Assembly: GCA_020848895.1 (NCBI GenBank)
Contig: JADLHI010000057.1
Location: forward strand, 1 to 33,324
Length of the DNA: 33,324 bases
Direction: 5' to 3'
Origin: Hyphomonadaceae bacterium
Lineage (GTDB): Bacteria > Pseudomonadota > Alphaproteobacteria > Caulobacterales > Aquidulcibacteraceae
In this document: positions 2,697-23,922 of the stretch, piece by piece
Position numbering within the stretch: position 1 is the stretch's first letter
Layout: every line of letters starts with the position of its first letter
The notes under the pieces: model-generated
Databases searched by the model: none
What the model saw: only the letters and a program-made list of their open reading frames with translations
What the model was told of the DNA's origin: nothing
Translations under genes and position numbers: made by a program

Positions 2697-5600
2697 TCGG
2701 GGCTGTCATCCGATGGTCGGTCGCCAACCGCATCGTTGTCGTGTTGGCGGCGCTCGTGCTCGCTATCGCTGGCGCCATAGCCGTGCGAACAACTCCGGTA
2801 GATGCGCTGCCCGATCTGTCTGACGTCCAAGTCGTCATCCGCACAACATACCCAGGTCAGGCGCCACAGATCGTCGAGGATCAGATCACGTATCCGTTGA
2901 CGACGACGATGCTCTCTGTTCCAGGCGCACGCACCGTGCGCGGTTACTCGTTCTTCGGCGACAGTTTCGTCTACGTGATCTTCGAGGACGGGACCGATCT
3001 TTACTGGGCGCGATCACGCGTGCTCGAATACCTGAACCAAGTGCAGAGTCGATTGCCGCCGAGTGCCCGTGCCTCTCTGGGGCCGGATGCGACTGGTGTC
3101 GGTTGGGTGTTTCAGTACGCGCTGGTCGATCGCACGGGTCAACATGATCTCAGCCAACTCCGTAGCTTGCAGGACTGGCTGCTGCGGTTTGAACTGAAGA
3201 GTGTGTCCGGCGTAGCCGAGGTCGCCTCGATCGGCGGCATGGTGCGACAGTATCAGATCGTCCTCGATCCCGAACGGATGGTTGCCTACGGCGTTAGCCA
3301 GGAGCGAGTGGCCGAGGCCGTACGCTCAGCCAACAGCGAAACTGGTGGCGCTGTCGTCGAGATGGCCGAAGCCGAACACATGGTGCGGGCCTCCGGCTAT
3401 CTCCGCACGCTTGAGGATTTCAACAACATACCGCTTGGGGTAGGGGCGAGCGGCGTTCCGGTGCGCCTAGGCGACGTAGCTTGGGTGCAGATCGGTCCCG
3501 AAATGCGCCGAGGCATTGCGGAGTTGAACGGCGAAGGTGAAGTCGCGGGGGGCGTCGTCGTCATTCGTGCAGGTGCAAACGCACGTCAGGTGATTGGCGC
3601 CGTGCGTGCACGCCTGACTGATCTGGAGCGCAGTCTTCCACCCGGCGTGGAGGTCGTCACGACCTATGACCGGTCGTCGCTGATCGGTCGCGCTATCGAA
3701 AACCTGTCAAGCAAACTCCTGGAAGAGTTCATCGTTGTTGCGCTCGTGTGCGCTCTCTTCTTGTTTCACATCCGCTCAGCATTAGTGGCTATCGTTACAC
3801 TGCCGCTCGGTGTTGCCACCGCCTTCCTGGTGATGCGGCTGCAAGGTGTGGACGCCAACATCATGTCCCTCTCGGGCATCGCCATCGCGGTTGGCGCCAT
3901 GGTGGATGCCGCCATCGTGATGGTCGAGAACGCACACAAACGGCTCGAACGGTGGCGGGATGAGCACGGTGGGGAGATGCCTCGGGGCGTTGATCATTGG
4001 CGCGTTATCACCGAGGCGGCGATCGAAGTTGGCCCGGCGCTCTTCTTCAGCCTGTTGATCATCACGCTCTCGTTCCTGCCGGTGTTCACGTTGCAAGCAC
4101 AGGAGGGCCGGCTGTTTGCTCCGCTCGCGTTCACCAAGACCTACGCGATGGCGGCATCTGCCGCACTGGCGGTGACGTTGACGCCTGTGTTGATGGGATA
4201 TTGGATCAGAGGGCGTATTCCCCACGAGAATGACAACCCGACTAATCGTGTGCTCGCTGCGGCCTACCAGCCAGCGATCGACTTCACGTTGGCCAACCCA
4301 CGGCTGATCCTCGTTGTGGCGCTGCTCGCTCTCGCCACAACGGTATGGCCGCTTTCCCGAGTTGGCGGCGAGTTCATGCCGATGATGGACGAGGGCGATC
4401 TTCTCTACATGCCAACCGCGTTGCCTGGGCTTTCAGCGTCGGAGGCCTCGGAATTGTTGCAGCAAACCGATCGCCTCATTCGCACGGTGCCCGAAGTTGA
4501 AAGTGTGTTTGGGAAAGCGGGTCGAGCGGAGACGGCCACCGATCCTGCGCCGCTGGAGATGTTCGAAACCACAATTCAACTCCGACCACGCGCCGAATGG
4601 CGCCCCGGCATGACGCCTGAGCGGCTGATCGAGGAACTAGATCGCGTCGTTCAGGTTCCTGGCCTCACCAACGTCTGGGTGCCTCCCATTCGAAATCGCA
4701 TCGACATGCTTGCGACCGGCGTGAAGAGTCCGATCGGTATCAAGGTCAGTGGTCCTGATTTGACATCCATCGACCTAGCCGCACGTGCGATCGAGACGGC
4801 ATCACGTGATGTGCAGGGTGTTTCCTCTGCTGTGGCGGAACGCATCAGTGGTGGCCGCTATGTCAATGTTGACATCGACCGTTTCGCTGCTGCTCGATAC
4901 GGGTTGAACGTCGATGACGTGCAGGCGGTCGTGTCTGGTGCGATCGGTGGGGAGAACATAGGCGAAGTTGTCGATGGGCGTGCCCGTTATCCGATCAATC
5001 TGAGATACCCACGCGAAACGCGCGACACTTTGGATCGTCTGATCGCTCTGCCCATCGTGACAGAAGCCGGCCTTCGGCTCACGCTGGGCGAGATGGCGCG
5101 GGTCGAGATTGCTGACGGCCCTTCCATGATCCGGAGCGAGAATGGCCGGTTGTCGGCGTTCGTCTACATCGATGTGCGCGGTCGCGATCTCGCTTCAGTC
5201 GTGCGTGATCTCCAACGACGTGTGTCGCAGCAACGATTGCCACCGGGCGTCAGCGTTTCCTATTCGGGGCAGTTCGAATACTTGCATCGCGCAACGGAGC
5301 GTCTAACCCTTGTCGCGCCGGCGACGCTCGCGATCATCTTCCTGTTGCTGTACGCCACCTTCCGGCGCTTTGACGAAGCGGCAATCGTGATGGCGAGTGT
5401 GCCGTTCGCTCTGACGGGCGGAATCTGGCTTGTCTACTTGCTGGGGTATAACCTCTCCGTGGCCGTCGCGGTCGGCTTCATCGCACTCGCCGGACTTGCG
5501 GCTGAGTTCGGCGTCGTGATGCTGGTTTATCTCAAGCATGCTCTGCAAGAGCGCATCGATCGCGGCGTGGAGATCACGGCAAGCGTCATCGCCGAAGCTG

Positions 5601-5869
5601 TACGTGAGGGTGCGTTGCAGCGCCTGCGACCGAAGGCGATGACCGTCGCTGTCATCCTTGCAGGCCTGTTCCCAATCCTCTGGACGGGCGGTGCAGGTGC
5701 GGAAGTGATGCGCCGCATCGCGGCGCCGTTGGTCGGCGGCATGCTTACCGCTCCGCTGCTGTCTCTGTTCGTCATTCCTGCGGCCTATCTCATGATCCGG
5801 CGCCGTGGCATCGAGCGCGTGGCGCTCACACCTTCCCAAGACCGGATCGCCACACAGAAGGGAAATTGA
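2693..5869 (+). CDS. cusA: CusA heavy-metal RND efflux pump
   Basis: This is the inner-membrane, proton-driven RND transporter (1058 residues) that exports Cu(I)/Ag(I) from periplasm or cytoplasm. Twelve membrane segments are expected: one at the N-terminus, blocks near residues 340-540 and a C-terminal block near 870-1040, separated by two large periplasmic loops. The three methionines of the E. coli CusA copper site are present at the same numbers: M573 (YMPTALPG), M623 (PLEMFETT) and M672 ([12 protein letters not shown]). This argues for monovalent copper/silver rather than Zn/Co/Cd. The TM4 segment has [13 protein letters not shown], typical of the HME-RND group. The gene overlaps cusB by four bases and is followed at once by cusF. 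Confidence 0.96.
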
Positions 5870-12887: not shown

Positions 12888-13367
12888 ATGACGCCGCGCC
12901 CCATGCCTACCGGAGCAGACTACGTCGCCGACGCTGTCGCGCTCGGCGTCGATGAGGTCATGATCGATCGTCTGGTTCGGCATTTCTACGCAGAGGTGCG
13001 GCTGGATGCGGAATTGGGTCCGATCTTTGACGCGCGTATCGCCGATTGGGAACCGCACCTTCGCCGCATGGTCGATTTCTGGTCCTCGGTGATGTTGCGC
13101 ACCGGCCGCTATCATGGCCAGCCCATGCCGCTCCATGCGCGTCTACCCGTAAGTGGCGTGGATTTCGATCGCTGGCTCGAACTCTTCGGCGCAACAGCCG
13201 AGAAAGTATGCGGCCCTGCAGCGCCTCTCTTCATCGACCGCGCAAGCCGGATCGCCCAGAGCCTCGAACTCGGTATCGCTGGAACGCGTGGTCTCATGCT
13301 GCAGACGAACGAGCGGCTTCCGCCGCTCGTCGCACCTCAAGGAGCGCCCGATGAACAAGACGTCTGA
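12888..13367 (+). CDS. Group III truncated haemoglobin
   Basis: A 159-residue haem protein of the TrHb3 (P) class. The segments VMIDRLVRHFYAEVRLDAEL, FDARIADWEPHLRRMVDFW, LRTGRYHGQPMPLHARLP and FDRWLELFGATAEKV follow the class order. Tyr34 fits the distal B10 position, His83 in PLHARLP is the likely proximal ligand, and Trp96 is conserved. Such globins act on NO or related species, or in micro-oxic respiration. The ATG at 12888 adjoins the operator and has no ribosome-binding site; the next ATG at 12903 also lacks one, so the message may be nearly leaderless. The gene overlaps ric by 17 bases. Confidence 0.93.
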   Translation: MTPRPMPTGADYVADAVALGVDEVMIDRLVRHFYAEVRLDAELGPIFDARIADWEPHLRRMVDFWSSVMLRTGRYHGQPMPLHARLPVSGVDFDRWLELFGATAEKVCGPAAPLFIDRASRIAQSLELGIAGTRGLMLQTNERLPPLVAPQGAPDEQDV

Positions 13368-14082
13368 GAACACACCAGACCTTGCGGCCATGACGCTCGG
13401 CGAGATCGCTGTGCGACTCCCCGGCGCGACCGCTATCTTCCGGCGCTATGGTCTCGATTTCTGCTGCGGCGGCGGTGCGCGCCTTCACGACGCTGTCCGC
13501 GCGCCAGGCATTGCCCTGGAGCAGATCATGCGCGAACTCCAGCTACTCGATGCAAACGCCGCGCGCGACTATCCCGCAACCGCGCCCGCACTCATCGACC
13601 ATATTCTGCAGCGCTACCATGAGACGCATCGGCGCGAGCTGCCCGAACTCATCCTTCTCGCCAAGAAAGTGGAGCGCGTGCATGCGGCGCACCCCATGGC
13701 GCCGCTCGGTCTCAGCGATGCGCTCCGCGCCATGGCGCAGGAGCTGGAAGCGCATATGATGAAAGAGGAGATTGTGCTGTTTCCGATGATGCGCCTTGGC
13801 GCGCATCCAGGCATTGCCCATCCGATTGCGCGGATGCGTCATGAGCATGACGATCACGGCGAGCGCCTGCGTGAGGTCGAGGGGCTGTATCGGGGCGGCG
13901 TGCTGCCCGATGACGCCTGCGGCAGTTGGCGTGCGCTCTATGCCGGCGTCCGAAAGTTGGCCGATGATCTCATGCAGCATATCCACTTGGAGAATAACGT
14001 GCTGTTTCCGCAATTCGCGACCGAGCTGCCGACAACACCGCTCTGTCCAGGCATGCTCACGCCAAACGAGCGCGCTGGTTGA
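13351..14082 (+). CDS. ric: Ric/ScdA/YtfE iron-sulfur cluster repair di-iron protein
   Basis: A 243-residue cytoplasmic protein that restores Fe-S clusters damaged by NO or oxidants. Residues 14-43 are the ScdA_N domain with GATAIFRRYGLDFCCGGG (Cys38-Cys39). Residues about 80-225 are a hemerythrin-like four-helix bundle whose iron ligands fall among H84 or H90, H135 with E139/E140, H166/H169, and H210/H212 with E214. ATG at 13351 has AAGGAG eight bases upstream, inside the end of the haemoglobin gene, so the two are coupled. The position behind an NsrR-like operator is the expected regulation of ytfE/dnrN genes. Confidence 0.95.
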   Translation: MNKTSENTPDLAAMTLGEIAVRLPGATAIFRRYGLDFCCGGGARLHDAVRAPGIALEQIMRELQLLDANAARDYPATAPALIDHILQRYHETHRRELPELILLAKKVERVHAAHPMAPLGLSDALRAMAQELEAHMMKEEIVLFPMMRLGAHPGIAHPIARMRHEHDDHGERLREVEGLYRGGVLPDDACGSWRALYAGVRKLADDLMQHIHLENNVLFPQFATELPTTPLCPGMLTPNERAG

Positions 14083-14171
14083 CTTATCGAGCAGAGGCGC
14101 CGACATTAGCTCCATCATGATGACGAACGCCGCCAATTCGCGTCTTCGCCTTCCGCGTGCACTCGTACGCG

Positions 14172-14279
14172 GATAACCCCTAGTGCTGCCTTGTTCCCGG
14201 CAGTTCTAGGGGGCTTATCATCACCTAAACTCAAACATCGAAACACGTGCAGCGCGTCGCCTTGGGCGGCGTGCGCTGC
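14172..14279 (+). promoter_or_regulatory. Structured leader upstream of Rnk/GreA-like gene (copy 1)
   Basis: Hairpin 1: GATAA-CCCCTAG (14172-14183) pairs with CTAGGGG (14206-14212) and, after a two-base bulge, TTATC (14215-14219). An inner stem CTGCC/GGCAG lies within. Hairpin 2: GCAGCGC (14249-14255) pairs with GCGCTGC (14273-14279), with inner GCC/GGC. GGAG and the ATG of the next gene follow at once. There is no T-run, which argues against a simple terminator for ric. The same two-part layout precedes the paralogue at 23515. The RNA function is inferred. Confidence 0.65.
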
Positions 14280-14294
14280 GCATTGGAGCTTACT

Positions 14295-14675
14295 ATGACC
14301 ACCGTACAATCACGCCCTCCGCTCTATGTCACGCAGGAGGAGCATGACCGCTTGTTCGACCTCGCCTACGCCGCGCTCGGCCGCGAGCCCGGCGCTAACA
14401 CAGTCATCGAAGAACTCACCCGCGCGCAGGTCGGGATCGACGCGCCACCCGAAGTCGTGCGCATGCAGGACAGCGTCACCTTTACCTATGATGGCTCGTC
14501 CTACCGCGATTTCGCGTTGGTGTTCCCCAGCGAGGCAGACATCAGCGCGCATCGTATCTCAGTGCTGACCCAAGTCGGCGCCATGCTGCTCGGGCTTCGC
14601 CCCGGCCAGAGCATTGCCTGGAACGGTCCCGATGGTCCGGGCCACGGTCTGATGATCGAGAGCGTCAGCCGTTAA
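14295..14675 (+). CDS. Rnk/GreA-GreB C-terminal-type elongation factor-like protein (paralogue 1)
   Basis: A 126-residue protein similar to Rnk (regulator of nucleoside diphosphate kinase), that is, the FKBP-like C-terminal domain of GreA/GreB with a short N-terminal helix instead of the coiled coil. Landmarks are YVTQEEHDRLFDLAYAAL, VRMQDSVTFTYDGSSYRDF, the segment ADISAHRISVLTQVGAMLLG, and LRPGQSIAWNGPDG. Such proteins bind RNA polymerase. ATG at 14295 has GGAG seven bases upstream; an earlier in-frame start at 14247 would run through leader hairpin 2 and is rejected. A second paralogue lies at 23515-23922. Placement between ric and ccoN suggests a stress or low-oxygen role. Confidence 0.82.
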   Translation: MTTVQSRPPLYVTQEEHDRLFDLAYAALGREPGANTVIEELTRAQVGIDAPPEVVRMQDSVTFTYDGSSYRDFALVFPSEADISAHRISVLTQVGAMLLGLRPGQSIAWNGPDGPGHGLMIESVSR

Positions 14676-14717
14676 AGTCGTTCCGTTTCCCGTCAATCGG
14701 CGCGATAACGCAATGCG

Positions 14718-14754
14718 TTGACCGTTCTTAAAAGCGGCATGTAAGATGCTACTT
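14718..14754 (+). promoter_or_regulatory. Promoter and predicted NsrR operator of the cco operon
   Basis: -35 TTGACC (14718-14723), 18-bp spacer, -10 TAAGAT (14742-14747). Inverted repeat GCAT (14737-14740) and ATGC (14746-14749) overlaps the -10. The 23-bp frame 14732-14754 matches the NsrR consensus at 16 of 22 positions by hand. No FNR/FixK box (TTGAT-N4-ATCAA) is seen between 14676 and 14787, which is unusual for a cbb3 operon. Confidence 0.6.
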
Positions 14755-14787
14755 TATGGGTATGGGCCGGAAGAGAGGCGAGGGGGC

Positions 14788-16440
14788 ATGATCCGTGAAC
14801 TAACGACCGGCCAGCGCCAAGCGGCGCTGGCCTTCCTCGCATTCTTTGCGCTCGGCGGACTCTTTCTCGCCGCCTTCGGTCGCGCCGATCCGATCGCGGG
14901 GCACGGCTGGCTTGTGCTCGCGGTTGCGCTCATCAGTCTTTTTGCGGTGTTGACGCGCTATTACGATCCTGAACCGGCCGCTGATCGCTCCGCCGAATAT
15001 TACGACGCGCCTGTCAAAACCGGCATCATCATCGCAATGGTCTGGGCGGTCGTCGGCATGTTCGTCGGCGATTGGGTGGCGTGGCTCCTGGTCAACCCGA
15101 ACCTCACCTTCGTTGACCAAGCCTGGGCGAGTTTCGGGCGCCTGCGCCCCGTGCATACGACCGCCGTCATCTTTGGTTTCGGCGGCAACGCTCTGATCGC
15201 AACCAGCTTCTATGTTGTGCAGCGCACGTGCCGCACGCGCCTCGCGGGGCATCTCTCGCCGCTCTTCGTCCTCTGGGGCTACAATCTCTTCTGCCTGCTC
15301 GCCGTCACCGGCTATCTCTGGGGCATCAACCAGTCGAAAGAATACGCCGAGCCCGAATGGTATGCCGATATCTGGCTGGTGATCGTCTGGGTCGCGTATT
15401 TCGTGCTCTTCCTGCGCACGCTCGCGCGCCGCAAAGAACCGCACATCTACGTCGCCAACTGGTACTATCTTGCCTTCATCTTGGTCGTCGCCGTGCTCCA
15501 CATCGTCAACGGCCTGGCGCTGCCGCTCTCCTGGACGCAAGCCAAAAGCTACTCGCTCTTCGCCGGCGTACAGGATGCGATGACGCAGTGGTGGTACGGC
15601 CACAACGCCGTCGCCTTCTTCCTCACCGCCGGCTTCCTCGGCATGCTTTATTATTACCTGCCGCGCCGCGCCGAACGTCCGATCTTCTCCTACCGCCTCT
15701 CGATCATCAGCTTCTGGGGCATCACCTTCTTCTATATGTGGGCGGGCTCGCACCATCTGCATTACACCGCGCTGCCGCACTGGGTGCAGACGCTCGGCAT
15801 GACCTTCTCCGTGATGCTGCTCGTGCCCTCTTGGGCTTCGGCCGGCAACGCGCTCATGACCTTGAACGGCGCCTGGCACCGCGTCCGCGACGACGCGACC
15901 CTGCGCTTCATGTTTGTCGCCGCCGTCTTCTACGGGCTCTCGACCTTTGAAGGCTCCTTCATGGCGATCCGCTCAGTGAACGCGCTCTCGCACTACACCG
16001 ATTGGACGGTCGGCCACGTCCATGCCGGCGCGCTCGGCTGGGTCGCCATGATTACGTTCGGCGCGATCTACGCCTCCGTGCCATGGCTCTGGAAGCAAAA
16101 GACCATGTGGTCGCCGCGCCTCGTTGAAGTCCATTTCTGGCTCGCGCTCGCCGGCACGCTTATTTACGTCTTCGCGATGTGGAATTCGGGCATCATCCAG
16201 GGGCTGATGTGGCGCACCTATAACGAAAGCGGGACGCTGGCCTATTCCTTCATTCAGTCCGTCGAGGCGATGCATCCGTATTATATTGCGCGCGCTGTCG
16301 GCGGCCTCTTCTTCCTGATCGGCGCGCTCGTCGGTTGCTACAATATCTGGATGACGATCCGCGCCGCGCAGGCGGATCACGTGCTTGAGGGCGACACGCC
16401 AGAGTCGGCGCCGCGTGCCGCGCTCGAAGCGGGGAGGTGA
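14788..16440 (+). CDS. ccoN: cbb3-type cytochrome c oxidase subunit I
   Basis: The catalytic subunit (550 residues) of the high-affinity terminal oxidase, which reduces O2 to water and pumps protons; it carries haem b and the haem b3-CuB site. About 14 membrane helices are visible. Landmarks are RPVHTTAVIFGFGGNALIA (low-spin haem His), the CuB region TQWWYGHNAVAFFLTAGFLG, SYRLSIISFWG, the GSHHLHYTALPHWVQ loop, and TVGHVHAGALGWVAM with the late haem ligands. ATG at 14788 follows GAGGGGG; an in-frame ATG at 14746 lies within the promoter and is rejected. It is followed by ccoO with stop/start almost touching. Confidence 0.97.
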   Translation: MIRELTTGQRQAALAFLAFFALGGLFLAAFGRADPIAGHGWLVLAVALISLFAVLTRYYDPEPAADRSAEYYDAPVKTGIIIAMVWAVVGMFVGDWVAWLLVNPNLTFVDQAWASFGRLRPVHTTAVIFGFGGNALIATSFYVVQRTCRTRLAGHLSPLFVLWGYNLFCLLAVTGYLWGINQSKEYAEPEWYADIWLVIVWVAYFVLFLRTLARRKEPHIYVANWYYLAFILVVAVLHIVNGLALPLSWTQAKSYSLFAGVQDAMTQWWYGHNAVAFFLTAGFLGMLYYYLPRRAERPIFSYRLSIISFWGITFFYMWAGSHHLHYTALPHWVQTLGMTFSVMLLVPSWASAGNALMTLNGAWHRVRDDATLRFMFVAAVFYGLSTFEGSFMAIRSVNALSHYTDWTVGHVHAGALGWVAMITFGAIYASVPWLWKQKTMWSPRLVEVHFWLALAGTLIYVFAMWNSGIIQGLMWRTYNESGTLAYSFIQSVEAMHPYYIARAVGGLFFLIGALVGCYNIWMTIRAAQADHVLEGDTPESAPRAALEAGR

Positions 16441-16445
16441 GGCGT

Positions 16446-17177
16446 ATGTTCGGACTGCACTACAAACTCGAAAAGAAGGCCATCGCGCTCGTGCTCGCGA
16501 TCATCGGCGTCTCCAGCATCGGTGGCCTTGTCGAGATCGCGCCGCTCTTCACCATCGACCAGACCGTCGAGGAAGCGCCGGATATGCGCGTCCTCACGCC
16601 ACTCGAACTCGCGGGCCGCAACATCTACATCCGCGAAGGCTGCAATGCCTGCCATTCGCAGATGATCCGTACACTCCGCGACGAGGTTGAGCGCTATGGG
16701 CCTTATTCGCGCGCGGCCGAGTCGCAATACGACCACCCGATGCTCTGGGGTTCGAAGCGCACCGGCCCCGACCTCGCCCGCGTCGGCGACAAATACTCAG
16801 ATGCTTGGCATGCCGCGCACCTCAACAATCCACGCGATCTCGTGCCGCAATCCGTGATGCCAGCCTATCCATGGCTCGCCCGCACGCCCGCGCGCATCGA
16901 CGACCTCGGGCAGCACCTCCGGCGCCTACGTCAGCTCGGCGTGCCGTACACAGACGCCATGATCCAGAACGCGGTCGCCGATGCCGCCGGACAGGTTGCG
17001 CCGAACACCGATCGCGGCTGGGGCGTCGCCGAACGCTACGGCGAGGCGACCAACCTCCGCGACTTTGACGGCCAACCCGGCGCGCCCACCGAAATGGACG
17101 CGCTCGTCGCCTATCTGCAAATGCTCGGCCGGCAAACGAACATCGCACGCACACCAGCATCCGAAGGAGCGGAGTGA
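16446..17177 (+). CDS. ccoO: cbb3-type cytochrome c oxidase subunit II (mono-haem)
   Basis: A membrane-anchored mono-haem cytochrome c (243 residues) that carries electrons to CcoN. An N-terminal membrane helix (about residues 11-30) is followed by the haem motif EGCNACHSQMIRTL and a later Met-rich stretch (VPQSVMPAYPWL) giving the axial Met. The segment YGPYSRAAESQYDHPMLWGS is typical of FixO/CcoO. ATG at 16446 has GGGGAGG seven bases upstream; a GTG at 16437 overlapping the ccoN stop is a less likely start. The gene overlaps ccoQ by one base. Confidence 0.96.
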   Translation: MFGLHYKLEKKAIALVLAIIGVSSIGGLVEIAPLFTIDQTVEEAPDMRVLTPLELAGRNIYIREGCNACHSQMIRTLRDEVERYGPYSRAAESQYDHPMLWGSKRTGPDLARVGDKYSDAWHAAHLNNPRDLVPQSVMPAYPWLARTPARIDDLGQHLRRLRQLGVPYTDAMIQNAVADAAGQVAPNTDRGWGVAERYGEATNLRDFDGQPGAPTEMDALVAYLQMLGRQTNIARTPASEGAE

Positions 17178-17347
17178 TGACGCTCGAACACGACTTCCTG
17201 GTGCTGCTCTCCAAAACCTTCGGTCTCTTCTACCTGATCGCGCTGTCGGTTGGCGTGCTCATCTACGCCTATTGGCCTCGCAACAAGGCGCGCTTCGACG
17301 CCGCTGCGCGCGCCATCCTAAACGGTGAGGACCGCCCATGTCCGTAG
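17177..17347 (+). CDS. ccoQ: cbb3-type oxidase small subunit
   Basis: A 56-residue protein that would be missed by a 60-codon cutoff. It reads MTLEHDFLVLLSKTFGLFYL, then a hydrophobic run ending in VLIYAYWPRNKARFDAAARA and ILNGEDRPCP. It has one membrane helix and the WPRNKxRFDxAAxxIL signature typical of CcoQ/FixQ, which stabilises the oxidase. Start ATG shares a base with the ccoO stop (TGATG), with GGAG upstream. It overlaps the ccoP start by ten bases. Confidence 0.93.
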   Translation: MTLEHDFLVLLSKTFGLFYLIALSVGVLIYAYWPRNKARFDAAARAILNGEDRPCP

Positions 17348-18213
17348 ATGAGCGCGATCCCCATAGTGGCTATAAGACCACCGGCCACGAATGGAACGGC
17401 ATCAAGGAATTGAACACGCCGGTGCCGCGCCCGGTCTATTTCTTCCTGATCGTGACCTTTCTTTTTTCGATCGGCTATTGGGTGCTGATGCCCGCCTGGC
17501 CGACCGGGCTCTCGTACACCAAAGGTCTTCTTGGCCTTGACCAGCGCGCCAGCGTTGAGCGTGAGGTGGCGCAGGCCGCCGCCGCGCGGGCGCCCTGGAT
17601 GAATGCGCTCGTCCGAACACCCTACGAACAGGCGCTCGCCGATCCCGCCCTGATGGCGCGCGTTCGCGATACCGGTGCGACGCTCTTTGGCGACAATTGC
17701 GCGGCCTGCCACGGCGCAAACGGCGCGGGCGCTCCCGGCTTTCCAAACTTGCGCGACGATATCTGGCTCTGGGGCGGCGCGCCCGACACGATCGCTGAAA
17801 CCATTCGGGTCGGCGTCAACTCAGGCCATGCCGATGCGCGCGTCTCGCAAATGATGGCCTTTGGCCGCGACCAGATGCTGCCGCAGGAGGATGTGCGCGC
17901 GGTCATCGCCTATGTGCGCTCATTGTCCGCCGCACGCGCGCCTGCGCCAAGCGCAACGCTCACGCGTGGCGCTGTGGTGTTCGCGAATACCTGCGCCTCC
18001 TGCCATGGCGCGCGCGGCGAAGGCATACAGCAAATGGGCGCGCCAAGCCTCATTGACAGTGACTGGCTCTATGGCGGCGACCAAGAAACCATCTTCCAAA
18101 CGGTTTGGCACGGCCGGCAGGGCCAGATGCCAGCCTGGGAAGGACGTCTTTCTGCTTCCGAGCGCCGTCTGTTGACGCTCTATCTGCTTGACCAGCAGCG
18201 GAGGCGACAATGA
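17338..18213 (+). CDS. ccoP: cbb3-type cytochrome c oxidase subunit III (di-haem)
   Basis: A 291-residue membrane-anchored di-haem cytochrome c, the electron entry point of the oxidase. The N-terminus has HEWNGIKELNTPVPRPV and the membrane helix YFFLIVTFLFSIGYWVLMP, as in CcoP. Two haem motifs follow, CAACHGANGAGAPGFPNL and CASCHGARGEGIQQMGAPSL, with axial Met residues in the later MAFG/QMPAW segments. It lies between ccoQ and a small membrane-protein gene and overlaps both. Confidence 0.96.
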   Translation: MSVDERDPHSGYKTTGHEWNGIKELNTPVPRPVYFFLIVTFLFSIGYWVLMPAWPTGLSYTKGLLGLDQRASVEREVAQAAAARAPWMNALVRTPYEQALADPALMARVRDTGATLFGDNCAACHGANGAGAPGFPNLRDDIWLWGGAPDTIAETIRVGVNSGHADARVSQMMAFGRDQMLPQEDVRAVIAYVRSLSAARAPAPSATLTRGAVVFANTCASCHGARGEGIQQMGAPSLIDSDWLYGGDQETIFQTVWHGRQGQMPAWEGRLSASERRLLTLYLLDQQRRRQ

Positions 18214-18398
18214 AGACGCCGGCGCTGTCTGATCGTTCCAAGGTGATCGTATGGCTCGCGGTTGCGGCTGGCGTTCTGCTTGTCGCGGGCGCCAATATGC
18301 ATCTTGTCTATGTCGCGAGCACGACCCAGCCCGCCTGCGTGGAGCACGCGCGCGACGGGGCCGGCGCCGCCGCCAAATCCGCGTGCCGGACAGAATAG
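18210..18398 (+). CDS. Small membrane protein in the cco operon, unknown
   Basis: A 62-residue protein with a single membrane helix (VIVWLAVAAGVLLVAGANMH, about residues 12-31) and a short tail with two cysteines (QPACVEH and KSACRTE). ATG overlaps the ccoP stop (ATGA). The tail pattern, MHLVYVA followed by a Pro-Ala-Cys and a final Ser-Ala-Cys, looks like small proteins I have seen next to alphaproteobacterial ccoP, but I know no function. The cysteine pair and its place in a copper/haem enzyme operon make an assembly or copper role possible. Confidence 0.7.
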   Translation: MKTPALSDRSKVIVWLAVAAGVLLVAGANMHLVYVASTTQPACVEHARDGAGAAAKSACRTE

Positions 18399-18407
18399 GA
18401 GGTGCCG

Positions 18408-19193
18408 ATGTCAACACTCCCCGCCGTCGAGCCTCGCCATCCGCCCGCCTATGATTTCAACCGCCATGTGCCGGCGTCTGCTGCCTTCGGTTGGCTGGCC
18501 GCTGGCTGGCGCGACTTCTGGAAGAACCCGCTCGCAAGCCTTCTCTACGGTCTCCTGGTCGCAGCGATCTCGGCCGGCATCGTCTGGGGGCTATTTGCGC
18601 TCCAACTGGACTACATTCTCTTTCCAGCGCTCTCGGCCTTCCTCGTTGTCGGACCCGTTCTCGCGATCGGCCTCTACGAAAAAAGCCGACGCATCGCCGC
18701 CGGCGAGAAGGCGCGTTTTGCGCGCATGATCTTCGTGCGCGCCCAATCAGGCTATCAGGTGATCTTCGCGGGCGTGCTCTTGAGCCTTCTCGCACTCCTC
18801 TGGATGCGCGCGGCCGTCATCGTCTATGCGCTCTTCTTCGGCGTGCGGGCGTTTCCTGGCATTGATCACATCGCCGAAATGCTGCTGACGACGCCGACCG
18901 GTTGGGGGATGCTGTTTGTTGGTACAGCTGTCGGCGGGCTCTTTGCAGCCTTCGCCTTCGCGATCAGTGTGCTGGCGTTCCCGATGCTGCTCGCCCAGCG
19001 CACGGATGCGTTGACCGCCATGGGACTCTCCATGGCGCGCGTCTGGGCGAACCGACCGGTGATGATCACCTGGGGCGCGATCGTCTGCGTGCTCTCAGCG
19101 CTTTCGATCGCGACGGGGTTTATCGGGCTTATCATCGTCTTCCCGGTGCTTGGCCATGGTGTCTGGCATGCTTACCGCGCGCTCACCGCTTGA
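18408..19193 (+). CDS. DUF2189 integral membrane protein
   Basis: A 261-residue membrane protein with about six helices. N-terminal YDFNRHVPASAAFGWLAAGW, the DFWKNPLASLLYGLLV segment, and central PVLAIGLYEKSRRIAAGEKARF are the DUF2189 landmarks; the family often accompanies cbb3 oxidase genes in alphaproteobacteria. AGGAGG six to seven bases before the ATG at 18408 fixes the start over an in-frame GTG two codons earlier. It overlaps the copper ATPase gene by about 38 bases. The biochemical role is unknown. It sits where ccoG/ccoH are normally found. Confidence 0.88.
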   Translation: MSTLPAVEPRHPPAYDFNRHVPASAAFGWLAAGWRDFWKNPLASLLYGLLVAAISAGIVWGLFALQLDYILFPALSAFLVVGPVLAIGLYEKSRRIAAGEKARFARMIFVRAQSGYQVIFAGVLLSLLALLWMRAAVIVYALFFGVRAFPGIDHIAEMLLTTPTGWGMLFVGTAVGGLFAAFAFAISVLAFPMLLAQRTDALTAMGLSMARVWANRPVMITWGAIVCVLSALSIATGFIGLIIVFPVLGHGVWHAYRALTA

Positions 19194-21336
19194 TCTGAAA
19201 GCCGCCGAACTTGATCTGGCGAGCGCCGCCGTCGGCGCCGGTGAGCGCCAGATCGAACTCGTCGTCCCCGAAATCCACTGCGCCGGATGCATCGCGCGCA
19301 TCGAACGCGCCCTCACAACACTGCCGGACGTAACCGAGGCGCGTGTCAACCTCTCGACGCGGCGCGTGCGCGTGCGCTGGCGCTCGGCAACACCGCCGCC
19401 GGTGCTGGAGACGCTCGCCGGACTCGGGTTTAGCGCACATGCGGCCGACGTGGATCGCCTCGCGGCCGACCCAGCGCGAAGTGAACTCCTGCGTGCGCTC
19501 GCGGTCGCGGGCTTTGCCGCCATCAACATCATGCTGCTCTCGGTCTCTGTCTGGTCAGGAGCGGACGTTGAGACACGACAGATATTCCACTGGCTCTCCG
19601 CGCTCATCGCGTTGCCGACGCTGGTTTACTCCGGGCGCGTGTTCTTCCGTTCCGCCTGGCAAGCGCTCCGGCGCGGGCGAACCAATATGGACGTGCCGAT
19701 CTCGATCGGCGTCATCACCGCCTTCGCGCTCAGTCTCTACGAGACCATCACCCACGGCCCGCATGCGTATTTTGACGCCGCCGTGACGCTGCTCTTCTTC
19801 TTGCTCATCGGGCGCACGCTCGATCAGCTGATGCGGGAGCGCGCACGCTCGGCGGTGCAGGGACTCGCGCGCCTCGCCGCACGCGGCGCTACCATCATTA
19901 CCGCCGATGGCGAACACATCTATCGCCCGATTGCGGCCATTCGGCCCGGCATGAGACTGCTCATCGCCGCAGGCGAACGCGCGCCCGTCAATGCGCATGT
20001 GCTCTCGGGCGCGTCGGACGCGGATGTCTCGCTCCTCACGGGCGAGAGCGCATCTATCAAAATTGGACCGGGCGATGATCTCTTCGCCGGTGCGCTCAAT
20101 CTCTCAGGACCACTGACGGTCGAAGCCACCTCCAGCGCAGAGGATTCCTTTCTTGCGGAGATGATGCGCATGATGGAGGCGGCCGAGGCGGGCCCCTCAC
20201 TCTATCGCTGCATCGCCGACCGGGCCGCACTCCTCTATGCGCCGGTCGTGCATCTGACCGCGCTCGCAACCTTGATCGGGTGGTGGAGTCTTGGCGGCGA
20301 TTTTCATCATGCGGTTACGGTCGCGGTCGCCGTGCTCATCATTACTTGTCCCTGTGCGCTTGGTCTCGCTGTGCCGATGGTGCACGTCGCCGCCGCACGG
20401 CGTCTCTTTGCGCAGGGGATCATGGTCAAGGATGGCGCCGCGCTCGAACGCCTCGCCGAGATCGATACGATCCTGTTCGATAAGACCGGCACGCTCACGC
20501 TGCCGGAGCCCGTGCTCGTATCGCGCCACGTGAGCGACGCCAAAGCGTCGCAGATTGCAGCCGCGCTCGCAGCGCATTCGATCCATCCTTATGCGCGCGC
20601 CATCGCACGCACAGAGCCGCGTGTGGCCCTGCCTTTCGAGACGATAAAGGAGCAGGCGGGCGCGGGCGTCCAAGCGCGTCTCGACGGCGCCCTCTATCGG
20701 CTTGGCCGCAGCGCCTGGGCTTCCGGCGCAGCGGACGGCGATGAAGACGCCGTGGTGCTCACGCGCGACGGCGCGGTGATCGCGCGCTTTGCGTTCAACG
20801 CCGCGTTGCGCCCGGACGCGGGCGCCGCCATTCAACAGTTGAAATTCGACGGCTACACGGTCGAGATCATCTCAGGCGATCACGTAGCGCCCGTCGAAAA
20901 CCTCGCGCGCACCCTCGACCTTGCCGCGCAGGCGCGCGTCACGCCCGGTGACAAGGCCGACTACATCGCCCGCCGCACAGCCAGCGGCGGCAAAGTCCTC
21001 ATGGTTGGCGACGGGCTCAATGACGGGCCGGCGCTCATGGCGGCCCATGTCTCCATGGCGCCGGCAAGCGCCGCCGATGTCGGTCGCAACGCTGCTGATT
21101 TTGTGTTCTTGCGGGAAGGGCTCATGGCGGTGCCCGAGGCCATTCACACGGCGCGCCGCGCCGCTCAACTCGTGCACCAGAACATGGGCCTTGCGATCCT
21201 CTACAACATCATCGCGGTGCCGATTGCGATCGCGGGCTATGTGACGCCGCTCATCGCCGCGATCGCCATGTCCGGATCTTCCATCCTGGTGGTCGCCAAT
21301 GCGCTGCGCATCGGCGGCGGGAAGGGGGCCGCGTGA
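19156..21336 (+). CDS. ccoI: CcoI/FixI-type copper P1B-ATPase for cbb3 assembly
   Basis: A membrane copper-transporting P-type ATPase (about 726 residues) that supplies Cu for the CuB site of CcoN. In order: an HMA domain with EIHCAGCIARIERAL; membrane helices; the actuator LLTGES; the copper channel motif CPC in ITCPCALGLAVPMV; the phosphorylation site DKTGTLT; HP in SIHPYARAI; and the hinge GDGLNDGPAL. CPC marks a Cu(I) ATPase, and the slow-export FixI type fits its place in the operon. The start is uncertain: ATGs at 19156 and 19168 both lie inside the end of the DUF2189 gene, and neither has a strong ribosome-binding site. Confidence 0.94.
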   Translation: MVSGMLTARSPLDLKAAELDLASAAVGAGERQIELVVPEIHCAGCIARIERALTTLPDVTEARVNLSTRRVRVRWRSATPPPVLETLAGLGFSAHAADVDRLAADPARSELLRALAVAGFAAINIMLLSVSVWSGADVETRQIFHWLSALIALPTLVYSGRVFFRSAWQALRRGRTNMDVPISIGVITAFALSLYETITHGPHAYFDAAVTLLFFLLIGRTLDQLMRERARSAVQGLARLAARGATIITADGEHIYRPIAAIRPGMRLLIAAGERAPVNAHVLSGASDADVSLLTGESASIKIGPGDDLFAGALNLSGPLTVEATSSAEDSFLAEMMRMMEAAEAGPSLYRCIADRAALLYAPVVHLTALATLIGWWSLGGDFHHAVTVAVAVLIITCPCALGLAVPMVHVAAARRLFAQGIMVKDGAALERLAEIDTILFDKTGTLTLPEPVLVSRHVSDAKASQIAAALAAHSIHPYARAIARTEPRVALPFETIKEQAGAGVQARLDGALYRLGRSAWASGAADGDEDAVVLTRDGAVIARFAFNAALRPDAGAAIQQLKFDGYTVEIISGDHVAPVENLARTLDLAAQARVTPGDKADYIARRTASGGKVLMVGDGLNDGPALMAAHVSMAPASAADVGRNAADFVFLREGLMAVPEAIHTARRAAQLVHQNMGLAILYNIIAVPIAIAGYVTPLIAAIAMSGSSILVVANALRIGGGKGAA

Positions 21337-21515
21337 GCTTTTTCTTCCTGATCCCGATCGCGCTCCTGATGGGCCTCGCGGGGCTCGTTGCCTTCCTATG
21401 GGCGCTCAAGAGCGGTCAGTACGAAGACCTTGATGGCGCCGCCGTGCGCATCTTGATTGAAGACGAGACGCCGACGCGAGACGAGCCAGCGCCGCCCGGG
21501 AACACTCGGTCATGA
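21333..21515 (+). CDS. ccoS: cbb3-type oxidase assembly protein CcoS
   Basis: A 60-residue single-helix membrane protein (FFFLIPIALLMGLAGLVAFL). It is followed by the CcoS signature WALKSGQYEDLDGAAVRIL and an acidic tail. CcoS is required for haem and copper insertion into the oxidase. GTG start at 21333 overlaps the ccoI stop (GTGA). It is the last gene of the operon; the next gene runs the other way. Confidence 0.95.
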   Translation: MSFFFLIPIALLMGLAGLVAFLWALKSGQYEDLDGAAVRILIEDETPTRDEPAPPGNTRS

Positions 21516-21546
21516 CGCGCGACGCCGTCGCGCCGCGCGGGCTGAT

Positions 21547-21960
21547 TCAGCGCGCTGTGATCGTCGTGCCGGTGGTTGTTGTAAGCACGAGTGCGCCTGA
21601 AGCATCCACACGATACCTCTGCACATTGTTCAGCACGTCTATGAACTGACATTCCTGATCCATGAGCGCTGGGGGACACATCATCATTGTCAGTCCAGCA
21701 TCGCCGATGTTCAAATTGGAGCCGTTCACCGTATAGACGCCCAGCAGGCGATTGCAGCTCGCTTGTCCCGAAAGACGTCCGTCCGCCCCGAAAGTCAGGG
21801 TGACGCGCGTGTCGTCGATGATGCCCCGCCCAGCGATGTCTTCGACGACCCATTCCCTGCCTGTTAGCGGTGATCCCGCATCCGGCATGCCGCTGCCGGT
21901 CGCACAGGCGACAATCAAGACGCTCATCATTGTTGCCGCGAGCTGACGTAGGATTTGCAT
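21547..21960 (-). CDS. META-domain lipoprotein (HslJ-like)
   Basis: A 137-residue envelope lipoprotein: signal MQILRQLAATMMSVLIVAC with the acylated Cys at 19, then a META/HslJ domain. The landmarks are LTGREWVVEDIAGRG, the strand VTLTFGADGRLSGQASCNRL, LGVYTVNGSNLNI, GLTMMMCPPALMDQE and RYRVDASGALVLTT. The paired cysteines in SCN and MCP are family features. GGAGGT lies six bases before the ATG. META proteins are linked to envelope stress or novobiocin resistance in E. coli (HslJ). It is convergent with ccoS, 31 bases away. Confidence 0.9.
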   Translation of the reverse strand: MQILRQLAATMMSVLIVACATGSGMPDAGSPLTGREWVVEDIAGRGIIDDTRVTLTFGADGRLSGQASCNRLLGVYTVNGSNLNIGDAGLTMMMCPPALMDQECQFIDVLNNVQRYRVDASGALVLTTTTGTTITAR

Positions 21961-22039
21961 GAGGCGACCTCCAGAAAGAAACAGCGTTGCACGTGATCGC
22001 TTTGTTGCAAAGGGATCAGCTACGTCATGGAGTGCGCAC

Positions 22040-22636
22040 TCACCAAGCGTCGCGCGTCATTTCCCAATAGAGTGATCGCCGGATTGAGCCATCCGGTCGT
22101 ACGCCGTCGCGTTCGCCCATCGCAACAAAGCCGGCTGCTTCAATGACACGCGCCGAACGGACGTTATCGATGGCGGCTGTCACGCAGACCAAGCGCACGC
22201 CCAGAGTTTCGAACATCCAGTTGAAACTGCGCGCGGCGCCCGCTTTTCCAAGTCCGGCGTTCTGATGATCGGCGCGATGCGCGCCAGCGATCTCCGCCGC
22301 CGATCGATCCGGCCAAACGGAAAACCACGAATAGAGCCAAATGCGTCCATCCTGATCCGCTGCAACAACGAGAAGCGCCTCGCCCGCTTGACGCAAGCGT
22401 TCAGCATCCTCCAGCCACGCAGCAACATTTTCATACGTCAGCGGACGCGGCAAATCGTAGATCGGATCAGAGACCGCCGGATCACTGAGGAAATCCACGA
22501 GCCCCGCGACATGCTCCGGCCCAGCTAACGTATAGCCTTCGCCGAGCCGCGAGAGATCGGCGCGGCGCACGGCCTCGCGGATCGCCTCCGCTTCCTCCGG
22601 CGACACGTCCAGGATCGTTTTTGGCGGCGCGCTCAT
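22040..22636 (-). CDS. GNAT-family N-acetyltransferase
   Basis: A 198-residue protein of the acetyl-CoA-dependent GNAT superfamily, RimJ/RimL-like. The C-terminal half has AEIAGAHRADHQNAGLGKAG (the region where the acetyl-CoA binding loop is expected), FNWMFETLGVRLVCVTAAID, then NVRSARVIEAAGFVAMGERD and the final RSLYWEMTRD. The acceptor is unknown. The ATG at 22636 lacks a clear ribosome-binding site. The gene is transcribed leftward away from the hipA remnant. Confidence 0.78.
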   Translation of the reverse strand: MSAPPKTILDVSPEEAEAIREAVRRADLSRLGEGYTLAGPEHVAGLVDFLSDPAVSDPIYDLPRPLTYENVAAWLEDAERLRQAGEALLVVAADQDGRIWLYSWFSVWPDRSAAEIAGAHRADHQNAGLGKAGAARSFNWMFETLGVRLVCVTAAIDNVRSARVIEAAGFVAMGERDGVRPDGSIRRSLYWEMTRDAW

Positions 22637-22666
22637 GAAAATACATGCTCCACTAAAACTCAGCCG

Positions 22667-23173
22667 TTATGATTGGCCCGCGACCACGTCAGCCGAAATG
22701 CCTTCGAAGGCATACGGGTTGAGAAACTGACGGCCCCAAAGAAGAGCTCGATCTGTCGGTGAGAGGTCGGCTTCATCGCACAACTCGCCCATCGTGTCTT
22801 GATGATCGCGACCTGTTTCGCGATGAGGCGCATTGCCTCCTCTGTGCTCATGAGGAATTGACCGGCGACGGCGACGCAATGGATGAGCTGACTGCGCCGC
22901 TCATCGCCTTTGATCAGCATGGCTTGCGAGGCAAGCTGGTCGGAACGGCTCTGCGGGCAACAGGGGTCAGACGCAGCTGCTTGCCGTTCCAGAAGCCGCG
23001 AGATTGCGGGCGTGATCGTCGGTGTTGCCGCAGAGGATGTTAAATCCGAGAGGGCCGAATAGCTCCCTGAGCGTTGCCGTTGGCTCGGCGAATCGGTGAC
23101 GAATGATCTCGTCATAACTCGCATGGCGCGCCATAAGTTCGTCCAGCTCAAAAAGGGTGAGGGCGGAGACCAT
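22667..23173 (-). pseudogene. hipA-like toxin kinase remnant, frameshifted
   Basis: Three consecutive leftward frames carry adjacent pieces of a HipA-type Ser/Thr kinase. Piece 1 (about 22967-23173) has SALTLFELDELMARHASYD and FNILCGNTDDHARNLAA, with the catalytic-loop Asp. Piece 2 (about 22885-22965) has LASQAMLIKGDERRSQL followed by STEEAMRLIAKQVAI. Piece 3 (22667-22879) has LCDEADLSPTDRALLWGRQF and LNPYAFEG, the usual HipA C-terminus. At least two frameshifts separate them, the N-terminal half is not recognisable upstream, and no hipB-like antitoxin gene is present. So it is a decayed toxin gene. Confidence 0.85.
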
Positions 23174-23409
23174 CGCCTTGCGGGTCCACGAAACCGGCAG
23201 CAGGCCACCACGACAATATTTGGGCCTTCACGAGGTGGAGATCGGGCCGCCAGACGCTAAGCCTAAGAGCGTGCGACCTTCCACCGCGCAATCGCTGCCT
23301 CGCGGCTCGGGCCACGCGCTTGACACTGTGACGCGACGTTCCAATATCGCTCTCATGGCCCTGCGCACTCCTTCCTCCGAACGACGCATCGTTCGCAATC
23401 TCTCGCGCA

Positions 23410-23498
23410 GATAACCCCTAGCCGGCGCTGTCTCGGCTAGGGGCGGCTTGCATTCAACCCGATCCAGATCTCAACGCACGCCGCAGCTTTTGGCTGCG
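23410..23498 (+). promoter_or_regulatory. Structured leader upstream of Rnk/GreA-like gene (copy 2)
   Basis: Hairpin 1: CCCCTAGCCG (23415-23424) pairs perfectly with CGGCTAGGGG (23434-23443) and is preceded by GATAA, as in copy 1. Hairpin 2: CGCAGC (23482-23487), loop TTTTG, GCTGCG (23493-23498). GGGAG follows at 23502-23506 and the ATG at 23515. The nearest upstream gene remnant runs leftward, so hairpin 1 is not its terminator. A -35-like TTGACA at 23320-23325 with a poor -10 near 23344 could start the transcript; this is weak. Confidence 0.65.
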
Positions 23499-23514
23499 CG
23501 CGGGAGCACGACCC

Positions 23515-23922
23515 ATGTCGAAGCAAGAGTATCAGCGTCCCCCGATCGTTGTCGCCGAGGATGAACACGAACGATTGGTCAGCCTGGCGCTATCGGCGTT
23601 GGATCGCACGCCCGGAGCGGTTGACCTGTTCACCGAACTGGCGCGCGCCAAGACGGTGGCGAATTTGCCCGAGCACGTCGTCGGCGTCGGCAGTGTGGCC
23701 ACGTTCGAGTATGATGGTTCGACCTATCGCGACTACGAACTCGTCGATCCGCATCGGGCCGACATCGCAGAGGGCCGCATCTCGGTGCTGACGCCGGTTG
23801 GCGCAATGCTGCTTGGATTGTCGGAAGGGCAAAGCATCGAATGGGTAGGACCCGACAAGCGCCGCCACAAGGTCTCTGTTGAGAAGGTGCGCGCTTCGGC
23901 GGCGCCGTCCTCCGCCACCTAG
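23515..23922 (+). CDS. Rnk/GreA-GreB C-terminal-type elongation factor-like protein (paralogue 2)
   Basis: A 135-residue paralogue of the protein at 14295-14675. It shares the same layout: IVVAEDEHERLVSLALSAL, VGVGSVATFEYDGSTYRDYE, ADIAEGRISVLTPVGAMLLG, then LSEGQSIEWVGPDKRRHKV. The N-terminal helix replaces the Gre coiled coil, so it should lack transcript-cleavage activity and instead bind RNA polymerase as Rnk does; that is inference from the family. GGGAG lies eight bases before the ATG. It is preceded by the same two-hairpin leader as the first paralogue. Confidence 0.84.
   Translation: MSKQEYQRPPIVVAEDEHERLVSLALSALDRTPGAVDLFTELARAKTVANLPEHVVGVGSVATFEYDGSTYRDYELVDPHRADIAEGRISVLTPVGAMLLGLSEGQSIEWVGPDKRRHKVSVEKVRASAAPSSAT

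Follow-up and report, generated by a model that had tools for sequence, protein, structure and literature searches.

In the present study, we analysed a 33,324-nucleotide (nt) stretch of contig JADLHI010000057.1 from a Hyphomonadaceae bacterium (source genome 3.57 Mb, 83% complete), which we refer to as the window. Each of its two rnk-family genes follows a short upstream open reading frame (uORF), the stop codon of which abuts a hairpin, P1. The leader is best read as the form taken in this genus, referred to here as Terricaulis-like, of a recurring alphaproteobacterial rnk leader with a probably leaderless uORF and a conserved hairpin directly behind its stop. We propose leader-peptide control: by holding P1 open, a ribosome at the end of the uORF would gate rnk. 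We assign this proposal a probability of approximately 0.55. The original prediction, made from the letters of the window, described two hairpins before each gene and suggested an RNA that is autoregulatory or masks the ribosome-binding site. The uORF was missing from it and likely shifts the mechanism; since its stop abuts P1, leader-peptide control becomes likelier than a masking RNA. The features of the two copies are as follows.

14079-14084, plus strand: predicted -35 box of copy 1, TTGACT, 38 nt 5' of the first uORF ATG, with a weak -10-like GACATT at 14102-14107
14117-14176, plus strand: uORF of copy 1, translation MMTNAANSRLRLPRALVRG and stop, with a second ATG at 14120; its TAA stop abuts P1 and it passes the automatic uORF-stem test described below
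14177-14212, plus strand: hairpin P1 of copy 1, CCCCTAG...CTAGGGG, fold z -6.4 (for 14172-14220), with covariation in 15 genus leaders
14247-14281, plus strand: hairpin P2 of copy 1, 5' of the rnk ribosome-binding site, fold z -3.1, weak as a feature shared by the genus
14295-14675, plus strand: copy 1 gene, a GreA/Rnk-family protein of 126 amino acids (Pfam PF01272, 41.1 bits)
23320-23325, plus strand: predicted -35 box of copy 2, TTGACA, 35 nt 5' of the uORF ATG, with a weak -10-like CAATAT at 23342-23347
23355-23414, plus strand: uORF of copy 2, translation MALRTPSSERRIVRNLSRR and stop; its TAA stop abuts P1 and it passes the automatic test
23415-23443, plus strand: hairpin P1 of copy 2, CCCCTAG...CTAGGGG, fold z -2.6, with covariation
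23479-23502, plus strand: hairpin P2 of copy 2 (GCAGC...GCTGC), fold z only -1.5
23515-23922, plus strand: copy 2 gene, an Rnk protein of 135 amino acids (Pfam PF01272, 52.4 bits, and PF14760 Rnk_N, 31 bits)

The shared sequence GATAACCCCTAG starts at 14172 and 23410. The TAA within it is the stop codon of the uORF in both copies, and P1 begins at the next base. The 5' letters GATAA common to both leaders are the end of a reading frame; in folding, their pairing with TTATC as an extension of P1 was possible in copy 1 only. A dispersed repeat was ruled out because GATAACCCCTAG has only two exact occurrences in the source genome, both in the window, besides two places with one mismatch. A read-through fusion of the uORF with rnk was also rejected by eye: the copy 1 frame closes inside P1, and that of copy 2 is out of frame with rnk.

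The same arrangement recurs at the rnk loci of the genus. Among the 30 genus genomes searched, 10 carry rnk, with 16 genes in total and up to three per genome, and no rnk was found in 30 other genomes of the family (E <= 1e-8). This patchy occurrence may reflect the movement of gene and leader together. The automatic uORF-stem test demands an ATG reading frame of 15-25 codons that ends 0-1 nt short of a stem with 6 or more pairs, and all 16 genus rnk loci passed it (shuffle mean 0.33 of 16); L038-L041, judged by length to lie on the same contigs as genus loci, were left out of the counts. The stop before P1 is TAG in 6 of these leaders, TAA in 6, and TGA in 4. The CCCCTAG stem is present in 15 of the 16, once as CCCCTAA...TTAGGGG and once with a G-U pair, while the sixteenth leader (L037) has CCCCCGGG in its place and a uORF ending in HPITGF. 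The exact P1 pattern occurred at 19 places in 101 related genomes: at all 13 located at rnk genes, a stop codon (TAA, TAG, or TGA) on the rnk strand comes immediately before the pattern; one further place was a tandem leader, and of the remaining 5, one had a stop before it on either strand. P1 thus recurs upstream of rnk genes, as the original prediction anticipated. The covariance model R1, built from 15 leaders, gave 16 sense sites in the 30 genus genomes, 15 of them at rnk, but it recovers its 15 training sequences by construction, misses L037, and was scored on 150 candidates per genome. R1 found no site in the 20 genus genomes without rnk and three weak antisense matches, on the same stems.

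The tandem leader (G029:C5:275138-275182; L019, L128) is located just 3' of an rnk gene and has the uORF MKHVNIEANSFERRIVRDLSRH. It precedes a GTG-start reading frame of 62 codons with a hydrophobic segment, not rnk, and is the only sense match to R1 in the genus without a following rnk.

Across the class, rnk was found in 32 of 289 sampled genomes (E <= 1e-20) and in 39 of 385 of an overlapping draw; two orders gave 33 of 41 and 5 of 24 genomes (E <= 1e-18), and 197 plasmid records had an rnk match. We examined 87 rnk loci: 16 from the genus, 29 from the class, 10 from plasmids, and 28 and 4 from two orders. The automatic test was passed by 45 of them (16, 10, 4, 15, and 0, respectively); the means of the shuffled controls sum to approximately 2 of 87, and no reversed sequence passed (0/87). 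From these we curated 44 leaders by hand, comprising 41 of the 45 automatic passes (L083, L084, L086, and L091 were left out) and L074, L075, and L096. Their stop codons are TAG in 27, TAA in 11, and TGA in 6. The use of all three stop codons at one place is what would be expected of a real stop codon and not of a conserved RNA letter motif.

A rule based on spacing, which asks for TTGA 33-39 nt before a 14-40-codon uORF, was matched by 19 of the other 43 rnk loci; approximately 1 of the 19 is expected by chance (antisense control, 24/870). Among 23 loci fetched after the rule was set, which include several near kin of earlier loci (e.g., L134, L145, and L153), 14 passed, and five of the nine misses (L140, L142, L144, L146, and L152) have a related peptide or stem by eye.

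The leaders are of two kinds. In class I, the stop precedes the stem, as in the window; L047 and L080, outside the curated 44, resemble class I by eye. In class II (L051, L054, L057, L062, L065, L067, and L109-L111), the reading frame includes the P1 5' arm and its stop codon lies in the loop, with ends such as ...RAGSLLTGHAAPGPVA and ...LRSGRLHAGTIAPEPDA and uORFs such as ...RAGRLQTG... and ...RAGSLLTGxxAPGPxA before the stop. L056, in which ...SRLHAGR and its stop lie directly 5' of GCCCCGG, looks like a link between the two classes. A run of six T follows the stem of L067 (class II) within a few bases and may mark a true terminator. The leader is also present on plasmids of Agrobacterium, Rhizobium, Mesorhizobium, Shinella, Ciceribacter, Neorhizobium, Roseibium, Sphingobium, and Novosphingobium. 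The uORF was absent as a listed gene from ten annotated plasmid records with the leader, the gene table being incomplete. On the rhizobial plasmids L149, L152, L154, and L155, a gene annotated as nucleoside-diphosphate kinase lies directly 3' of rnk. The second batch had 9 plasmid loci including these 4, of which 3 lack a usable gene table.

The start of the uORF is also marked. All 44 curated leaders have a TTGA box that begins 34-38 nt 5' of the best in-frame uORF ATG, at exactly 35 nt in 27, and none of them scored a Shine-Dalgarno motif 4-15 nt 5' of that ATG. The corresponding frequencies at 2090 ATGs of the same loci were 7.1% (TTGA, 18-nt window) and 8.8% (Shine-Dalgarno). In L045, AGGAGG touches the uORF ATG. 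In 22 of the 44 leaders, TTGA is followed at 16-18 nt by a -10-like hexamer with A2 and T6, as are 113 of 731 control TTGA sites (15%). A transcript driven by a -35 box approximately 35 nt before the ATG would start on the ATG. Because TTGA stands at a fixed distance and no Shine-Dalgarno motif is present, the uORFs are probably leaderless, with the transcript start predicted at the ATG. In copy 1, the stop codon of the preceding ScdA/hemerythrin gene overlaps the predicted -35 box.

Covariation supports P1 itself as a selected RNA structure, as the original prediction suggested. The hairpin closed by CTAGGGG was found before both genes and folds better than dinucleotide shuffles in both copies (z values listed above); the differing inner stems (CTGCC/GGCAG in copy 1, CCG/CGG in copy 2) and the predicted spacer of 30-40 bases (approximately 35 nt in both copies) were likewise confirmed. 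CTAGGGG has 4 occurrences in the window, every one in the two P1 stems (shuffle mean 0.96). Across the 15 genus leaders, 96.3% of P1 cells pair, and pairing falls to 45-61% when the partner is slid by one base. Four pairs change on both sides, which was matched by 20 of 500 shuffles, and the covariation score was 0.236 versus 0.106 for shuffles, with 0 of 500 as high, a count that is not a probability because the 15 sequences are related. The outer six pairs, CCCCTA/TAGGGG, are invariant among these 15 leaders and do vary outside the genus: in 26 class-wide stems chosen by hand, pair 5 takes all four Watson-Crick forms (GC 11, CG 4, UA 4, and AU 3).

The peptide provides a second, less decisive line of evidence. 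The ratio of nonsynonymous to synonymous differences (pN/pS) was 0.49 both for the 6 loci of the type-3 genus cluster and for the 11 of the order-G154 cluster, versus 1.1-1.5 in the shifted frames of the same clusters; in three uORF pairs it was 0.54, 0.32, and 0.49. The pooled value was 0.65 versus 0.90 for column shuffles, of which 18 of 500 were as low. These values lend moderate support to selection at the peptide level, and this support comes from the two largest clusters, not from those of the window's own uORFs. The evidence from uORF placement is stronger than that from peptide selection. C-termini common to different lineages, each directly before the stop, include ...RNHPIAEA, ...LRAGRLVAGV, ...SKRLIAGF, ...GGQLLAGI, ...VFLIAGT, and ...CREYPVEGY, and further uORFs end in ...FRVCPIAGI, ...FPIAGI, and ...FPLAGY. 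Outside the genus, 24 of 28 curated leaders (18 distinct last-six sequences) carry a motif written after the peptides were seen, [LP][ILV][ATE][GE]x and stop. Inspection by eye showed no stretch of codons for the same amino acid in the uORFs; therefore, a signal of general translation or of coupling is a better fit than an amino acid. A known peptide family was ruled out for 7 uORF peptides, for which NCBIfam and Pfam gave no family.

We envisage the following course of events. Transcription would begin on the uORF ATG or a few bases away from it, and the uORF of approximately 20 codons would be translated as a leaderless message. The uORF stop lies against the P1 5' arm or, in class II, in the loop behind it, such that the ribosome and folded P1 would be mutually exclusive. 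A ribosome covers approximately 12-15 nt downstream. At the stop of a class I uORF, it would cover the 5' arm by its footprint, while in class II it would translate through the arm; a ribosome at the end of the frame would block the hairpin both where the stop lies 0-1 nt before the stem (45/87) and where it lies inside the stem-loop. As long as translation of the uORF keeps pace with RNA polymerase, P1 would stay open; when it is untranslated or the ribosome has gone, P1 would fold. Folded P1 would then reduce the amount of rnk message made, most likely through the pausing or ending of transcription before rnk. Rho may act on the spacer after P1: Rho sites are often G-poor, and in the 40 nt behind P1 the share of G is lowered (18% versus 31% of loci in the genus and 23% versus 33% elsewhere, the baseline being whole loci, mostly coding DNA), while that of C is not changed. 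The uORF C-terminus may slow termination and thereby set the sensitivity of the system. The predicted start and translation and the stop-to-P1 placement rest on sequence comparison; from these we infer the switching of P1, its effect on rnk, the role of the C-terminus, and the direction and signal of control. In pyrBI-type coupling attenuators and TnaC-type stop-codon arrest leaders, a ribosome near the end of a reading frame decides between a hairpin and the progress of polymerase. Unlike these, the present leader has neither a U-tract terminator nor a known arrest motif.

The most serious competitor is translational control, in which ribosomes finishing the uORF would reinitiate at rnk or clear structure on the way to it, with P1 and P2 as obstacles to ribosomes rather than to RNA polymerase. 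A single transcript is predicted to carry both the uORF and rnk; in the genus, P1 and the rnk start are 62-106 nt apart, and by eye most of the 16 genus loci have a GC-rich local hairpin in this spacer. However, by eye a Shine-Dalgarno sequence of its own precedes most of the 44 rnk starts (chosen by a script that favoured such starts), and holding the P1 5' arm open in folding left the mean accessibility of the rnk start at 0.43 versus 0.44 over the 44 leaders. Accessibility rose by more than 0.1 in 3 of the 44 and fell in 6 when the arm was blocked. The masking of the ribosome-binding site by P1 was rejected on this basis, and here the original prediction did not hold. In ermC-type translational attenuators, a uORF is followed by stems before the main gene; in contrast, opening P1 here does not expose the rnk start in folding. 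A second hairpin had also been predicted, and a GC hairpin does precede the ribosome-binding site in both copies; however, it is weak in folding, and the genus as a whole gives it little weight. We consider translational control unlikely. Transcriptional control is favoured over it, and leader-peptide control is preferred overall because P1 is no terminator by the usual criterion, access to the rnk start is not controlled by P1 in folding, and a ribosome on the last uORF codons would open P1.

Two further explanations were weighed. The uORF may encode a small working peptide co-transcribed with rnk, with P1 only separating the cistrons or stabilising the message. Purifying selection in the two clusters with a pN/pS of 0.49 and the recurring C-terminal motif are consistent with such a peptide, but its sequence differs widely within the genus while the distance from stop to P1 is constant, and the ratios in the clusters of the window's own uORFs are near or above 1; we regard this explanation as improbable. 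Alternatively, P1 may serve a protein or processing enzyme as its site on DNA or RNA (an operator, an RNase site, or a stability stem), the frame before it being untranslated. The invariance of the outer six pairs in the genus, beyond the needs of pairing, would suit such a site. Against it stand the three different stop codons in the same position, the TTGA box fixed relative to the uORF ATG in every curated leader, and the changes in the outer pairs outside the genus, which leave it a very slight likelihood.

Several observations weigh against leader-peptide control, in addition to the circularity of R1 and the baseline of the spacer composition noted above. No U-tract follows P1: the longest T-run within 12 nt is at most 3 in the 16 genus leaders and 4 in 2 of 28 others (these 44 leaders and those of the spacer composition include L080 and omit L043, a difference of one from the curated set). 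A scan of both window copies found no intrinsic terminator and no T-run (0 at both copies), on which an intrinsic terminator at P1 was rejected, in agreement with the original prediction that the hairpins are not simple terminators; that transcription would end at P1 is therefore assumed. The -10 elements are of low quality, and a generic scan for sigma-70 promoters was negative at both copies of the window. The reverse complement passed the automatic test at 9 of 87 loci, and 24 of 87 rnk loci have neither a curated nor a spacing-rule uORF, including those of S. meliloti, in which rnk follows a phosphotransferase system (PTS) gene by 17 nt, and S. fredii. As for the peptide, pN/pS was 0.86 in the copy 2 cluster (4 members) and 1.88 for the copy 1 uORF with one close relative; in pair D, the shifted frame (0.36) was below the true frame (0.54); and the C-terminal motif was found in only 1 of 16 genus leaders. 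The whole spacer from P1 to the rnk start has a mean z of only -1.0 over the 16 genus loci, making hairpin 2 weak.

The leader does not correspond to a catalogued RNA. The original prediction had pointed to known rnk leaders for comparison; with a score of at least the gathering threshold as the test, the covariance model of the enterobacterial rnk leader, RF01771, matched neither the window nor the 40 related loci, while the E. coli rnk control scored 124.9 bits. No other Rfam family matched in these 41 sources either, and a loose threshold gave four matches, far below their gathering scores; a known RNA family was thus ruled out. The spacing rule found no uORF upstream of E. coli rnk. Naville and Gautheret (2010, PMC2965389) rank greA/rnk seventh among the families often regulated by attenuation and describe rnk leaders in Pseudomonas, Enterobacteria, and Yersinia and greA leaders in Enterobacteria and bacilli, all found through intrinsic terminators with antiterminators; the word alphaproteobacteria is absent from the main text. 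Those leaders and RF01771 resemble the present one as cis-regulatory leaders of greA/rnk-family genes; the attenuators described there differ in that the present leader has no U-tract and has a uORF. As far as its main text goes, PMC10117765 describes the trpL (rnTrpL) attenuator of Sinorhizobium meliloti as a leaderless leader reading frame and does not mention rnk. The likeness is a short frame read from the first base of an alphaproteobacterial 5' leader, with the ATG start predicted here; trpL is a tryptophan attenuator, whereas the present uORFs show no run of a single amino acid by eye and no U-tract follows the hairpin. A literature search, with subscription journals mostly outside its reach, returned no description of an alphaproteobacterial rnk leader or uORF.

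The window also shows the setting of the two genes. Pfam confirmed the predicted GreA/Rnk-like paralogues at 14295 and 23515: PF01272 (GreA_GreB) matches both, and an Rnk_N match was reported for copy 2. Within 13153-21336, copy 1 lies between the ScdA/hemerythrin gene and a cbb3-type oxidase cluster with a COX1 subunit, FixO, FixP, DUF2189, and a P-type ATPase; judged by these genes, its neighbourhood is a microaerobic setting. Upstream of copy 2 and pointing away from it, a frame on the minus strand at 22900-23240 reads ...FNILCGNTDDHARNLA..., which we take to resemble HipA kinases. The frame of 183 amino acids listed there had no match in the Pfam search and, therefore, may be a broken gene. 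At 1218-5869, a CusB-like membrane-fusion protein with a CusF domain is followed by an AcrB-type pump, which looks like a heavy-metal efflux operon.

What is new here is a reading frame of approximately 20 codons, apparently read from the first base of its message, in what we infer to be leader-peptide regulation. The leader offers a compact and testable case, with the hairpin exactly where a ribosome ending the leader frame would open it. We tentatively speculate, with the odds against it, that a leaderless peptide with a recurring C-terminus and a stop-abutting hairpin free of a U-tract sense coupling and set the Rnk level as a feedback loop across Alphaproteobacteria. Rnk presumably binds RNA polymerase, as we assume from E. 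coli Rnk. The leader may, thus, link translation to a factor acting on RNA polymerase; if the proposal is true, the element would tie the level of an RNA-polymerase-binding protein to translation and act as a sensor of transcription-translation coupling.

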